The notes under the pieces: generated by a model
Database searches by the model: none
What the model was told of the DNA's origin: nothing
What the model saw: the letters and a program-made list of their open reading frames with translations, nothing else
From: a virus
Length of the DNA: 64,000 nt
Strand: one strand, 5' to 3'
IMG/VR virus record: IMGVR_UViG_3300019458_000020
Span: 186,001-250,000 of that record
Shown here: positions 2,704 to 11,649 of the stretch, in pieces
Layout of the letters: every line of letters begins with the position of its first letter
Numbering within the stretch: position 1 is the first letter of the stretch
Translations under genes and position numbers: made by a program

Positions 2704-3237
2704 TTATAATCCTTTTGCACGACTTAATCTTGGTTCTGCAACACCGGTTCCATATACCCAAGAAATAAAGGAACATGACCGAATTCCATAACTTCCTAGT
2801 TCAATATTCTTATAGACTATATCGAAGGTTCCGTTTTTTAAATCAACCACATCTACATCCACCCACTGACGGAAAAAAGATAATGCATCATCAATTACCG
2901 ATGATAATGTGCCGACATTAACAAAATCTGTAATCATTAGTTCATTCTTCATAAAATATTTATGATTCCATTGAGTAATGGATTCTTCACGAAAACAGGG
3001 AGTGATTGTTTGAAATTTTCCTTTTGGTAAATGTCCTAAATTATATAAAGAAAGTAGTGATTGTTCTCCGGATGCTACTAACACTTCATCTTTTTCTTTA
3101 ATAGTAAAAAATGGATATCCTGGTGGTGTAGTAATCTCAGAAATTTTTCTAGGAATATACCAAGGAGATTCAATTTGTTTATATCCCCTCGCTTCATAAT
3201 ATTCTACCGACTTAGCAAGTATTGAATAATCAATCAT
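2704..3237 (-). CDS. Class II aminoacyl-tRNA-synthetase-like catalytic domain protein
   Basis: 177 aa. It carries the class II core signatures in order: a motif-1-like IESPWYIP near residue 25, motif 2 as PCFREE followed by HKYFMKNELMITDF (residues 83-105), and a motif-3-like YGTGVAEPRLSRA at the C terminus. There is no anticodon-binding domain, so it is a stand-alone core like HisZ, PoxA or AsnA relatives. Which amino acid or substrate it uses cannot be told. ATG 3237 sits in a TAATATG junction. Being phage-borne beside many tRNA genes makes a tRNA role plausible but unproven. Confidence 0.6.
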   Translation of the reverse strand: MIDYSILAKSVEYYEARGYKQIESPWYIPRKISEITTPPGYPFFTIKEKDEVLVASGEQSLLSLYNLGHLPKGKFQTITPCFREESITQWNHKYFMKNELMITDFVNVGTLSSVIDDALSFFRQWVDVDVVDLKNGTFDIVYKNIELGSYGIRSCSFISWVYGTGVAEPRLSRAKGL

Positions 3238-7633: not shown

Positions 7634-8038
7634 TTAATTGTTTACTGTTTCTTTACTTACCAAATACTGACGATTGGCTTCTATTTTCGCCAACTTTAAT
7701 TCCTCTAACATTTGTGTAACAGTCTTTCTGTATTCATTGATAAGAGAATACCATCTTATAATTCCGTTAACATCTTTGTATTTGTTAAATACTAAAGAAT
7801 ATCTTTCATTTGTCTCTCGCAACTCTTTCTGGAATCCTTCTTGTAAATCCCACAACTCACGGTAATAATTGGATTTAGCTCCCCTTTTATTCATAATTTT
7901 TTCGGATTTGGAGAAAATTTGTGCGTGAATCTTACGAACAAATTTCATATCTCGAATAGATTCACTCAATTCGTTGTATTTTTTCTTCCAATCGCAACGA
8001 TAGGTTAAATATTCTTGTTTAGTCGTAAATGTTATCAT
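7634..8038 (-). CDS. Coiled-coil hypothetical protein, 134 aa
   Basis: Lys/Glu-rich and helical (YNELSESIRDMK, EGFQKELRETNERY). Its ATG 8038 overlaps the TGA of the peptidyl-tRNA hydrolase gene (ATGA). Function unknown. Confidence 0.6.
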   Translation of the reverse strand: MITFTTKQEYLTYRCDWKKKYNELSESIRDMKFVRKIHAQIFSKSEKIMNKRGAKSNYYRELWDLQEGFQKELRETNERYSLVFNKYKDVNGIIRWYSLINEYRKTVTQMLEELKLAKIEANRQYLVSKETVNN

Positions 8039-8427
8039 AGTAATTTTAGTTTATTTGTTATATGTTGAATTTGTTCTTTGGTAGCCGGTCCAATACCTAA
8101 AGCTGTGACTGTTGATTCACCACCAAAAAAGTTTGGACAACCAGAATCGACCACAACATAAGTGGATAATCCGGCTGCCTTGGCTTCATAAGCAATTCTA
8201 TGAAGTTCAGAGAGACTGGAAACTTTTAAACAAATTTTAGTTCCCGGAGATTGAGGAAAATCTTTATGATATTCGGATAAAGCATGTTGATTTTTACAAT
8301 TTAAAAAGGCACCCAAAAAGGCATGACCAGCTTGTGCGGCAATTTTACCAGGCTCCATACCCAAATCTGTTCGGATTAAGGCGTAAAGTCTGTATGTATT
8401 ACCTTGAGTCTAGTATTCGTTATTCAT
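8035..8427 (-). CDS. Peptidyl-tRNA hydrolase 2 (PTH2) with an in-frame TAG at codon 6
   Basis: PTH2 frees tRNA from prematurely released peptidyl-tRNA. Family signatures are clear: RLYALIRTDL (first strand), GKIAAQAGHA, PGTKICLKV, VVVDSG and LGIGPA. The only ATG placing the first strand in frame is 8427, and codon 6 is TAG (8410-8412). Between that TAG and the strand there is no start codon. Starting at the internal ATG (GMEPGK) would delete the strand and leave 109 residues. Reading the TAG gives 130 residues, normal for PTH2. The gene sits directly downstream of the suppressor-tRNA array. Confidence 0.75.
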
Positions 8428-8454
8428 AGTTTTATTGGTTGATGTTTGTGAAAT

Positions 8455-8509
8455 TGGCGGTTGGGCATTGACTTGAACAATGAGAGACAGCTAAACTGTC
8501 ATCCCAACC
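8455..8509 (-). ncRNA. Minimal tRNA-like RNA 1 (55 nt, CCA end)
   Basis: Acceptor GGTTGGG/CCCAACC, a 5-bp arm with loop TTTAG (GACAG/CTGTC), a standard T arm (CATTG, loop TTCAAGT, CAATG), then G and CCA. There is no D arm. The same layout recurs at 8511-8563 and 8758-8812. Confidence 0.55.
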
Positions 8510-8510
8510 T

Positions 8511-8563
8511 TGGTGGTCAAGAGAAGTCCTACTTCTTGGATTTGATAAACAAATACCTTGACC
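8511..8563 (-). ncRNA. Minimal tRNA-like RNA 2 (53 nt, CCA end)
   Basis: Acceptor GGTCAAG/CTTGACC, arm ATTTG/CAAAT with loop TTTAT, second arm AGAAG/CTTCT with a 5-nt loop TAGGA, then A and CCA. Same layout as its neighbours but with a shortened T loop. Confidence 0.5.
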
Positions 8564-8568
8564 GAAAT

Positions 8569-8754
8569 TGGTGCTCGGGGAAGGACTCGAACCTTCAACA
8601 TCAGAACTTTCGTTCCAATCCATTCGTCTCTCGACGGGAAGACAATAGGGATATACTTCCACCATACACTCCTTCACGGTTCCTTCAAAACGCCCTACGT
8701 ATGACGTATGAATCCTACTAAATGAACTTGTGCCCTTTATTCTGGTACCCAAGC
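8569..8754 (-). ncRNA. Long tRNA-like RNA (186 nt, CCA end)
   Basis: The ends pair as an acceptor (GCTTGGG/CCCGAGC, one G-U) and the 3' side has a perfect T arm (GAAGG, TTCGAGT, CCTTC) and CCA. A variable-arm-like hairpin (GAACGAAAGTTC) lies just upstream. The remaining 100 nt do not fold into a normal anticodon arm. It may be a tRNA with an insertion or intron, or a tRNA mimic. Confidence 0.45.
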
Positions 8755-8757
8755 AAA

Positions 8758-8812
8758 TGGTGGTCAAGGAAGGAATTGAACCTTCATATATTCCTAAAGA
8801 ATAATCTTGACC
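8758..8812 (-). ncRNA. Minimal tRNA-like RNA 3 (55 nt, CCA end)
   Basis: Acceptor GGTCAAG/CTTGACC, arm TATTC/GAATA with loop TTTAG, standard T arm (GAAGG, TTCAATT, CCTTC), then A and CCA. The acceptor is identical to RNA 2, but the arms differ. Confidence 0.55.
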
Positions 8813-8817
8813 GTAAA

Positions 8818-8939
8818 TGGTGGTTGATGTGGAATTGAACCACACCTTCGTAATATTTTGCAACCTTTTCACGAAGTCCTGACCTTTACTCAAACGATTA
8901 CTTACGCGTTTCATCGTTTTTTCGCTTTCAGTTTCAACC
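8818..8939 (-). ncRNA. tRNA-like RNA (122 nt, CCA end)
   Basis: Acceptor GGTTGA/TCAACC, T arm TGTGG/CCACA with loop TTCAATT, and CCA. Between them are two long stems, AAACGAT/ATCGTTT and CTTCGT/ACGAAG, in place of D and anticodon arms. Lies just downstream of the suppressor tRNA. Confidence 0.45.
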
Positions 8940-8948
8940 ATAAAAAAA

Positions 8949-9024
8949 TGGCGCCCCATGTGGGAGTTGAACCCACACGAAATTGTTTTAGAGACAACTG
9001 CTCTACCAATTGAGCTAATGAGGC
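8949..9024 (-). tRNA. Amber suppressor tRNA (anticodon CTA)
   Basis: A fully canonical 76-nt cloverleaf: acceptor GCCTCAT/ATGGGGC, D arm GCTC/GAGC with GG, anticodon stem GTTGT/ACAAT, loop CTCTAAA, T loop TTCAACT, G73 and CCA. The anticodon (8989-8991) pairs with UAG. The loop and D loop closely resemble bacterial tRNA-Trp (loop CTCCAAA) with one C-to-U change, and G73 suits Trp or Gln charging. It heads the RNA array that ends in the TAG-containing PTH2 gene. Confidence 0.9.
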
Positions 9025-9107
9025 GTAATGAGGATAGAATGTTGGCTTCGGTGTTTTCACCGTTGCCTTTAGAAACCTATGTTGGTTTAATATTCATTCT
9101 ATTAATA

Positions 9108-9135
9108 ACTATATACCAATTTCGTGTTTTGTCAA
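9108..9135 (-). promoter_or_regulatory. Promoter of the suppressor-tRNA array
   Basis: TTGACA, 16 bp, TATAGT on the minus strand. The -35 box directly follows the T-run of the terminator of the outer-membrane gene. The transcript would reach PTH2. Confidence 0.7.
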
Positions 9136-9140
9136 GAAAA

Positions 9141-9178
9141 AAATAAACCCCCAAGTTTTAACTTGAGGGTTTTGTTTA
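9141..9178 (-). terminator. Terminator of the outer-membrane protein gene
   Basis: Minus-strand hairpin CCCTCAAG/CTTGGGGG closed by A-T pairs, followed by TATTTTTTTC, directly after gene 9211-9828. Confidence 0.75.
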
Positions 9179-9210: not shown

Positions 9211-9828
9211 TTAAAACGGAAATCTAAGGCCCGCTTGGACTGCTCGGCTTCCTTGGCTCCAATGAAAATCAACATTACGATATTGAAATTCTCCGAAGGC
9301 TCGGACGTGTTTAACAACTTGAACTTCCAGACCCGCCTTTGCAACGTATGACCAAGTATTTCCTTCTTGCCAGTTCAAAACCGTTCCCAATCCACCATAA
9401 GGTGCAACGTGTCTTAACACGGGGCACTTCTCAAAGAGAGGAGCACGGAGTAAAAGCCCAGCATGAACTTCATCAACTTGCAATCGGTCATCGGTACTCT
9501 TGTAAATCGGAACATTAGCTTCCAATCCAACCAACTTGGTTGGGAACCAAAAGGCGCCGACAGTCAAATTAACCGTGCGATCTCCTTCACTACGAAGTGT
9601 ACGGGTTTCGTTTTGTGGATGACAATATTTATAGGAACGTTCCACTTCATTCGGAACTTCCACTGTTCGAACTGAATCAGGAGGATTCACCAAACAACCA
9701 GAACTCAAAGTGAGTCCAACTTCTCCAGCGTTAAAAAGAGAAGGCACTACAGGACTTGGTGCGGCCTTAACATTAACAACTGAAAACACCGACAAACATG
9801 CGATCAATGCGATTAATAACTTTTTCAT
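9211..9828 (-). CDS. Outer-membrane beta-barrel protein with signal peptide
   Basis: 205 aa. It has a clear signal peptide (KKLLIALIACLSVFSV, cleavage after VKA), then alternating hydrophobic strands (VNLTVGAFWF, YGGLGTVLNW, AGLEVQVV) and a C-terminal strand ending in Phe (AGLRFPF), the usual BamA-recognised end. Unlike most genes here it has a leader of about 70 nt with an inverted repeat and a purine ribosome site (AAAGGAAAGA). A phage-made outer-membrane protein could block receptors (superinfection exclusion); that is inference. Confidence 0.75.
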   Translation of the reverse strand: MKKLLIALIACLSVFSVVNVKAAPSPVVPSLFNAGEVGLTLSSGCLVNPPDSVRTVEVPNEVERSYKYCHPQNETRTLRSEGDRTVNLTVGAFWFPTKLVGLEANVPIYKSTDDRLQVDEVHAGLLLRAPLFEKCPVLRHVAPYGGLGTVLNWQEGNTWSYVAKAGLEVQVVKHVRAFGEFQYRNVDFHWSQGSRAVQAGLRFPF

Positions 9829-9927
9829 TTCTTTCCTTTTGTTTTCTTGTTTTTGTTTATACGGACACTAGTCGTCCGCGTTTCACTAGGGGATTAATAT
9901 ACAACCGAACAAAAGACAATCAACTTT

Positions 9928-10188
9928 TTATATTTGTTTGTTTTCAATGAATTTATAAAACTCTCTGGCTGTCTTTAAAATTTCATCAGCAGCGAATAAT
10001 TGACAGGAGTTATAATTTGGAGAAGCAATGGCGTGTCTAAGACTGACTGCTAATTCCAATACATGCAATCGAATCTCGTATGCATTTTTATTGACCGTAC
10101 TAATATATTTTAGTTCTTTAACTACATTCGGTGTAAGTTGAGTGAATTGCGACTCGTTTTTATCGGAGTCTTTAATAACTTTTTTCAT
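9928..10188 (-). CDS. Hypothetical protein, 86 aa
   Basis: Helical, soluble, not recognised. Preceded by a purine-rich ribosome site (AGAAAGAAAT) and no leaderless promoter. Confidence 0.5.
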   Translation of the reverse strand: MKKVIKDSDKNESQFTQLTPNVVKELKYISTVNKNAYEIRLHVLELAVSLRHAIASPNYNSCQLFAADEILKTAREFYKFIENKQI

Positions 10189-11241: not shown

Positions 11242-11649
11242 TGGTGGACCTAGTTGGAGTTGAACCAACGTGTTGAAAACCAAAGATATCCAGCAACTAC
11301 ATGTTTAGTTCGTTTGTGTATTCGCCTGTATGATAAACGAACAAACTGTCAGGCATAGATTGGCATACTGGCCTTTCGAATCAGTCTTGTAATTAAAACC
11401 ACAAGCAGTTCTCCCTCTGTTTTACGCCGTTTTTGACCTAGAGGAGTCAGTCAATACGACGGAACGGATATTAGGCCGCTACTGCGTTGAATTCGATTTC
11501 AACATTATTCATATTGAAAGAAAAATCAACATTTTGCAAACGAGTAAGTTTAGCATTTATTTTTCCGTCATCTTTTTTAAGAGGCCAGACGACCAACCTC
11601 TACATGCTCTGTGTATCCTATAATCTTCAGTCGATACCATTATAGGCCC
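11242..11649 (-). ncRNA. ssrA: tmRNA (ssrA), phage-encoded
   Basis: 408 nt. The 5' GGGCCTA pairs with the 3' TAGGTCC, with a G3-U70 pair, the alanine identity mark of tmRNA, then A and CCA. The 3' side has a normal T arm (GTTGG, TTCAACT, CCAAC). Near the 5' end, GAGCATGTAGAGG...CCTCTTAAAAA matches the conserved tmRNA helix and PK1 region. The tag frame starts at GCT 11554 and ends at TAA 11471. tmRNA rescues ribosomes stalled on broken mRNA and tags the product for proteolysis. Confidence 0.92.
11471..11554 (-). CDS. tmRNA tag reading frame, 27 aa
   Basis: From the resume codon GCT (Ala): begins AKLTRLQNV and ends EFNAVAA before TAA. The AVAA end is a typical ClpXP/ClpAP degron. It is longer than most tags (often 8-15 residues). 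It sits between the PK1 helix and the downstream pseudoknot region. Confidence 0.8.
   Translation of the reverse strand, partial: AKLTRLQNVDFSFNMNNVEIEFNAVAA

Follow-up and report, generated by a model that had tools for sequence, protein, structure and literature searches.

Genome-wide reassignment of stop codons with the help of suppressor tRNAs has been described for crAss-like and Lak phages that use code 15 (PMC11210395, PMC10879173, PMC13037316). Suppressor tRNAs have also been reported in jumbo phages that keep the standard code, namely in Atu_ph07 (anticodon UCA; PMC6102473), XacN1 (CUA; PMC5852040), and RsoM2USA (CUA; PMC8504454). The accessible portions of these three reports name no specific target for the tRNAs (PMC6102473, PMC5852040, PMC8504454), and, according to the accessible text on XacN1, its authors sought an amber read-through target and found none (PMC5852040).

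The locus that we describe here resembles those of code-15 phages in that a phage-encoded CUA (or UCA) tRNA would read the stop. It differs from them in that TAG and TGA stay terminators, in that one gene, encoding the peptidyl-tRNA hydrolase PTH2, carries a single (sometimes double) early stop, and in that stop and tRNA change in concert, with TAA/UUA as one of the pairs. An early in-frame stop near the start is also a feature of the gene for release factor RF2 (prfB), which is autoregulated via a +1 frameshift at UGA. Both cases concern a translation factor gene with an early stop where a translation event gates synthesis, but in the phage PTH2 genes the frame is unchanged past the stop (in all but one locus, L099) and a cognate suppressor tRNA is present in the same phage. 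The phage proteins share fold, K/D/T residues, and length with archaeal and eukaryotic PTH2 (PF01981; PDB 2zv3, 1xty, 1q7s), whereas the early stop is absent from the cellular genes (0/80). The open papers searched, as far as their text was accessible, contained no description of an early stop in phage PTH2, and we would file the arrangement as a new form of stop suppression, in which one gene is paired with a matched tRNA under the standard code.

A PTH2 gene with an early in-frame TAG near a suppressor tRNA

The window, i.e., the whole stretch of 64,000 nucleotides that was analyzed, covers positions 186001-250000 of a 250.8-kb virus record (G000). Three of its features are central:

8035-8427 (-): gene for the peptidyl-tRNA hydrolase PTH2, 130 residues with the TAG read (PF01981, E = 4.6e-26)
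8410-8412 (-): in-frame TAG, codon 6 of PTH2, with A as the next base (sequence reading)
8949-9024 (-): suppressor tRNA with anticodon CUA, G73, and encoded CCA (ARAGORN, Rfam, and sequence reading)

The PTH2 gene runs from an ATG at 8425-8427 to a terminal TAA at 8035-8037 (-). Its product matches PF01981 over positions 2-115 of 115, i.e., over the whole domain, and archaeal PTH2 (PDB 2zv3) with E = 7e-21; the conserved G-K..Q..H, D, and T of the fold are present, with K16, Q20, H23, T51, and D82 (core numbering) invariant. By profile and fold, the gene is thus a PTH2, with peptidyl-tRNA hydrolysis as its predicted activity. An AF2 model (mean pLDDT of 90.2) places strand 1 at residues 13-19, while residues 1-6, the stop residue included, have a pLDDT below 50. 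Because the stop residue lies in this disordered tail before strand 1, the identity of the inserted amino acid should hardly matter. A sequence-only reading of the window had placed the TAG at codon 6 and had seen no alternative start between it and strand 1, and this holds: The six codons that lead from the TAG to the strand-1 motif RLYALIRTDL (ACT CAA GGT AAT ACA TAC) include no ATG, GTG, or TTG (sequence reading), and the first candidate starts downstream of the TAG are a TTG and the ATG of ‘DLGM’, both past strand 1. Judging from the model, a start there would delete strand 1 and should not be tolerated.

The same reading had described a canonical tRNA(CUA) at 8949-9024 (-), in agreement with the anticodon called by ARAGORN (cta), the score against the Rfam tRNA model (66.3 bits), and the structure as read from the sequence, with a 7-bp acceptor stem (GCCTCAT/ATGGGGC) and a 5-bp anticodon stem that closes the loop CTCTAAA. 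The ‘Pyl’ label given by ARAGORN is due to the anticodon only; measured against the hallmarks of tRNA-Pyl (6-bp anticodon stem, tiny variable loop, reduced D loop), this identity is ruled out by the 5-bp anticodon stem, the 5-nt variable loop, and a D loop with GG. The discriminator base is G73, and other discriminators occur among the suppressor tRNAs of relatives. By its structure and its stop-complementary anticodon, the element is a suppressor tRNA, which would be charged and would decode the stop during infection. As a refinement, ~520 bases lie between the tRNA and PTH2; they hold D-armless elements that resemble tRNAs, and they are crossed by an open frame with its start in a leader upstream of the tRNA (see below).

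Early stops are shared by a whole PTH2 subfamily

With the window PTH2 as a single query protein, a scan of viral sequences yielded three relatives. All three have a CUA tRNA upstream, and in all three the start of PTH2 contains in-frame TAGs. A six-sequence profile yielded 54 loci. Within the subfamily marked by ‘RLYAIVRxDLxM’, an early interruption was present in 38/38 PTH2s (the window and Sinorhizobium phage Phosso counted), where these 38 rows are related and stem from a search seeded with early-stop members, chosen by protein similarity only. The interruption is an in-frame stop in 37 of them and a stop plus a frame change in one (L099). The first stop usually falls at codons 3-9, several genes have two stops, and the stop is mostly TAG, with TGA in three genes and TAA in one. 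The subfamily forms one clade (98/99), apart from nine phage PTH2s with a normal start. At cellular PTH2 loci (mostly archaeal), a start codon precedes any upstream stop in 80/80, and a mechanical test in which ATG, GTG, and TTG were all allowed as starts found the stop first in 32/37 subfamily rows versus 0/80 cellular ones. That early stops extend across the whole PTH2 clade, versus 0/80 cellular PTH2s, excludes chance as the origin of the early TAG. A nucleotide search of phage records with positions 1-24000 of the window gave no match.

Two members of the subfamily are isolates: The PTH2 gene of Agrobacterium phage Atu_ph07 begins ATG ATT GGC GAA CAC TTT TGA ATT, and that of Phosso begins ATG AAG TAT TAG GTT. 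In both records, PTH2 is annotated from an internal ATG with the loss of strand 1, which exposes a systematic annotation error. Two further loci show peculiarities. PTH2 of L099 (~9915-10000) lies at +1 to the start ATG AAC ACA GCT ATG CAG TAG GTT, which points to either a shift at the TAG or an indel introduced by sequencing, and L091 has, just ahead of the full PTH2, a second, partial copy (9063) that carries an early TAG of its own.

The sequence around the stop behaves as a continuous reading frame

In eight close relatives, the TAG is invariant, the codons on its two sides share a single frame, and the length of the sequence around the stop is constant. Differences among the codons before it (MLTNSFL) number 67/32/13 at codon positions 3/1/2, and those among the codons after it (EAAARY...) number 210/72/52. 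As judged from these patterns, the flanks on both sides of the stop evolve as coding sequence. The invariance of the TAG itself also counts for readthrough, because an ordinary terminator would be free to change into TAA or TGA. At +4, directly after the stop, a purine (G or A) is found in 31/32 cases. A purine at this position favors suppression over termination. Many of the pre-stop ATGs in the subfamily are preceded by a Shine-Dalgarno (SD) sequence, and in the subclade of the window the ATG lies 7-10 nt downstream of the −10 box of a strong promoter, which suggests near-leaderless starts.

Stop identity follows the anticodon of the suppressor tRNA

When pairs were compiled from ARAGORN runs on the loci and from whole-record searches, the stop of PTH2 and the anticodon of the phage tRNA combined as TAG/CUA in 28 cases, TGA/UCA in 3, and TAA/UUA in 1, with 0 mismatches (P = 7e-6 by permutation, i.e., random pairing; P = 7e-5 with the related L094 and L098 merged). 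TGA/UCA is found in L094, L098, and Atu_ph07, so that the UCA tRNA of the latter is here matched to the TGA of its own PTH2, while TAA/UUA is found in L087, where the tRNA lies directly upstream of PTH2. In pattern searches with a sensitivity of ~87% (27/31), the records with TGA or TAA in PTH2 yielded no CUA tRNA, and those with TAG yielded no UCA tRNA. A selenocysteine identity of the three UCA tRNAs, for which at least 90 nt and a long extra arm were required, is ruled out by their length of 75-77 nt and their class I form.

Stop identity changed at least three separate times on the PTH2 tree, each time with the matching tRNA, and, since the rows are related, these independent switches weigh more than the count of pairs. 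L094 and L098 have near-identical PTH2s and very different UCA tRNAs, which indicates that the tRNA turns over while the match persists. A suppressor tRNA was present in 32/35 early-stop phages (short fragments L097, L099, and L100 excluded) versus 2/18 phages whose PTH2 is normal or of another kind (P = 8.5e-9), a comparison that draws on local ARAGORN for most of the early-stop phages and on whole-record patterns (27/31 sensitivity) for the controls. Searches of the whole records found no suppressor tRNA in L083 (which has no tRNAs at all), L091 (543 kb), and L095, all with TAG in PTH2; it may be that part of the genome is missing from these records or that the stop is read by a host or near-cognate tRNA instead. 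CUA tRNAs alongside a normal-start PTH2 occur in G041 (L255, a 47.6-kb contig) and in XacN1 (W08). The XacN1 case implies that such tRNAs have other uses, and other suppression targets may exist in both phages. For RsoM2USA, too, which has a CUA tRNA, the analysis detected no PTH2 with an early stop.

As far as comparative sequence data can tell, the clade-wide early stop and the matching of stop and anticodon across three switches strongly support what the sequence-only reading had proposed, namely that PTH2 depends on the adjacent tRNA(CUA). PTH2, which is conserved throughout a diverse, deeply branching clade of phages, is the likely target of the suppressor tRNAs here, and the co-switching of stop and anticodon offers a natural, testable case of suppressor-tRNA-gated expression. 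As a separate observation, the uncultured phage LR745208 (L012) carries a tRNA with a UUA anticodon (3145-3221) 1.2 kb past a normal-start PTH2.

Suppression is probably targeted to one gene

The early TAG had originally been put down to amber recoding, with code-15 gene calling and a search for in-frame TAGs in conserved genes as suggested checks. Genome-wide recoding of the code-15 kind did not survive the analysis: Among the 94 ORFs of the window, 47 end in TAA, 42 in TGA, and 5 in TAG, which is thus depleted as a terminator (5/94 versus 16% of stop-like trinucleotides; P = 0.002) yet still in use as one, also for long ORFs, and with TAG read as Q the gene map of the window remained nearly unchanged. 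A search for SD-supported early-stop ORFs over ~700 kb of loci brought up mainly PTH2, the remainder being chance-like except for one gene in L095; without the SD requirement, many chance matches appeared, with all three stops. The early stop is thus nearly restricted to PTH2 in the stretches examined. Many conserved genes that end in TAG and show no readthrough had been named as a possible refutation of the original proposal, but suppression targeted to one gene would be compatible with such genes. According to the accessible text on Atu_ph07, UGA serves as a normal stop in many of its genes (PMC6102473), so suppression must coexist with termination there. The pattern suggests that nonsense suppression can serve as a switch dedicated to one gene, with no need to reassign the code.

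The exceptional gene in L095 (11525-12121) lies 1.6 kb past PTH2 and starts with ATG ACC ATG TAG, preceded by an SD sequence. Its orthologs in L112, L113, and L115 have a normal start, which makes it a second, young early-TAG gene.

Proposed mechanism and alternative explanations

We consider it highly likely that PTH2 is made by programmed suppression of a single gene via a dedicated phage suppressor tRNA. Translation would begin at the ATG and reach the in-frame stop after 2-8 codons, in a context of weak termination (purine at +4), where the matching phage tRNA, charged and decoding during infection, would insert an amino acid and so yield full PTH2. The enzyme would probably be made only while the stop-reading tRNA of the phage itself works.

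Among the alternatives, the stop might act as a termination or release-factor sensor, in which case PTH2 would be made through near-cognate readthrough or at low RF, and the suppressor tRNA would be incidental or would only raise the background. The known autoregulation of RF2 by an early stop, the three whole records with no suppressor detected, and the weak +4 context fit such a sensor, but TAG (RF1), TGA (RF2), and TAA (both) are all in use, which a single-factor sensor cannot explain, and the anticodon tracks the stop across three switches; we therefore regard it as improbable. Even less probable is a start of PTH2 past the stop, by re-initiation or at a rare start codon, with the ATG-stop as an upstream mini-ORF. 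Five members do have a possible start between the stop and strand 1 (GTG in L094, L098, and L113; TTG in L104; ATG in L103), as in the TGA GTG of L094 and L098, so re-initiation is possible in those five, but 32/37 have no ATG, GTG, or TTG ahead of strand 1. Moreover, SD sites or promoters fit the pre-stop ATG, both flanks evolve as a single frame, and the type of stop tracks the tRNA, for which there would be no need if the stop were a plain terminator.

That TAG is a sense codon throughout, as in crAss-like and Lak phages, would fit the CUA tRNA and the depletion of TAG as a terminator, but it is almost certainly wrong given that ORFs are nearly the same under TAG = Q, that long ORFs end in TAG, and that early-stop ORFs are mostly PTH2. 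Equally hard to credit is a pseudogene or sequencing error: The frame problem of L099 and a short ORF in L119 are of that kind, whereas the pattern recurs in dozens of genes from independent records, two isolates (Atu_ph07 and Phosso) among them, and the fold is intact. Programmed frameshifting and ribosome bypassing are ruled out by the continuous frame.

As to what programmed suppression of PTH2 would be for, our tentative proposal, which may well be wrong, is a feed-forward or homeostatic coupling, in which the hydrolase rises with suppressor activity. PTH2 output would follow the activity of the suppressor and repair its side effects, chiefly the loss of scarce tRNAs as peptidyl-tRNA, with PTH2 recycling the tRNAs from dropped-off short peptidyl-tRNAs. 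In E. coli, peptidyl-tRNA drop-off occurs mainly within the first ~16 codons (up to the 10th for non-cognate drop-off), is promoted by hungry A-site codons, and is followed by recycling of the peptidyl-tRNAs by PTH (PMC10192219). The early stops of PTH2 fall within this E. coli drop-off zone. It is also possible that the early stop is a simple infection timer.

A leader frame that runs across the tRNA

The region upstream of the tRNA contains a second ATG...TAG arrangement:

9145-9172 (-): terminator-like hairpin upstream of the promoter, with a 12-pair stem and a T tail
9108-9135 (-): putative sigma-70-type promoter, TTGACA-16-TATAGT (sequence match, 11/12)
9077-9097 (-): leader mini-ORF ATG AAT ATT AAA CCA ACA TAG (M-N-I-K-P-T-stop; sequence reading)
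8432-9097 (-): open frame that begins at the leader ATG and continues past the leader TAG, across the tRNA and the mini-tRNAs, with a TGA end just ahead of the PTH2 ATG

The identical promoter is found at the identical distance in five relatives (L003, L084, L085, L086, and L089), and equivalents of the leader mini-ORF are found in L003, L084, L086, and L089, where, as in the window, they lie ahead of the tRNA and open into a frame that crosses it. In the window, the ATG of the mini-ORF lies 10 nt past the −10 box, and its TAG is followed by GTT TCT; the mini-ORF resembles the 5′ end of PTH2. Past the TAG, the leader frame stays open for 214 codons (0/2000 Markov shuffles were open), with 10 and 18 stops in the other two frames of the region, and in L089 for 233 codons (1/2000 shuffles). 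In L003 (4084-4613) and L084 (9848-10354), the PTH2 frame starts upstream of the suppressor tRNA gene and contains it, with only two TAGs as interruptions.

The second ATG...TAG leader and the frames that are open across the tRNA in the window and L089 suggest, more speculatively, that readthrough limits tRNA production. Readthrough of the leader TAG would translate the tRNA precursor and could thereby limit tRNA maturation. The corresponding self-regulating circuit, which we regard as doubtful, would consist of a near-leaderless tRNA transcript with its own ATG...TAG, where more suppressor would send more ribosomes through the precursor and yield less new tRNA, while the stop-interrupted frame would convert suppressor activity into PTH2. 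Leader frame and PTH2 frame would be separate in such a circuit, but one and the same in L003 and L084, where the tRNA lies within the PTH2 frame, so that, if the circuit is true, a single RNA could give either tRNA or enzyme.

Two further observations concern the leader. In L086 (6316-6867), the leader frame passes its TAG and the tRNA into a 170-codon ORF located between tRNA and PTH2, which resembles an HNH endonuclease by eye and may be a mobile element. A role of the ACATAGGTTTC motif as a general regulatory site was considered and rejected; its exact form was found in the window only ahead of the tRNA.

Mini-tRNAs and a tmRNA near the locus

Between the suppressor tRNA and PTH2, the window holds several tRNA-like elements, and a tmRNA lies farther upstream:

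8818-8865 (-): degenerate, weak mini-tRNA-like element (model R1, 22.1 bits, E = 0.0038)
8758-8812 (-): 55-nt D-armless mini-tRNA with loop UUUAG, a T arm, and ACCA (z = −3.45; 73.7 bits against a covariance model that was built from this element)
8511-8563 (-): 53-nt mini-tRNA variant with loop UUUAU and a T loop without TTCRA (model match)
8455-8509 (-): 55-nt D-armless mini-tRNA with loop UUUAG and GCCA (z = −3.52)
11242-11649 (-): tmRNA, located 2.2 kb upstream and thus a further ribosome-rescue function in the neighborhood (its place in the circuit is putative)

The mini-tRNAs share a plan of a perfect 7-bp acceptor, 2 nt, a 5-bp hairpin with a 5-nt loop UUUAG (UUCAG, UUUAU), a T arm, and NCCA; with the hairpin drawn as a 7-nt loop, the triplet after U33 is UUA or UCA. 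The fold z of four typical mini-tRNAs is about −3.1 to −3.5. When 16 other phage records were searched with the covariance model and a viral collection with one pattern, only the closest relative (G008/L089) gave strong matches, at 9383-9437 and 9440-9494. Genes for tmRNA recur near suppressor/PTH2 loci (L089, L094, L098, L099, L103, and L116) and near the CUA tRNAs of XacN1. In the window and L089, the predicted tag peptides are unusually long, with 27 and 31 residues, respectively.
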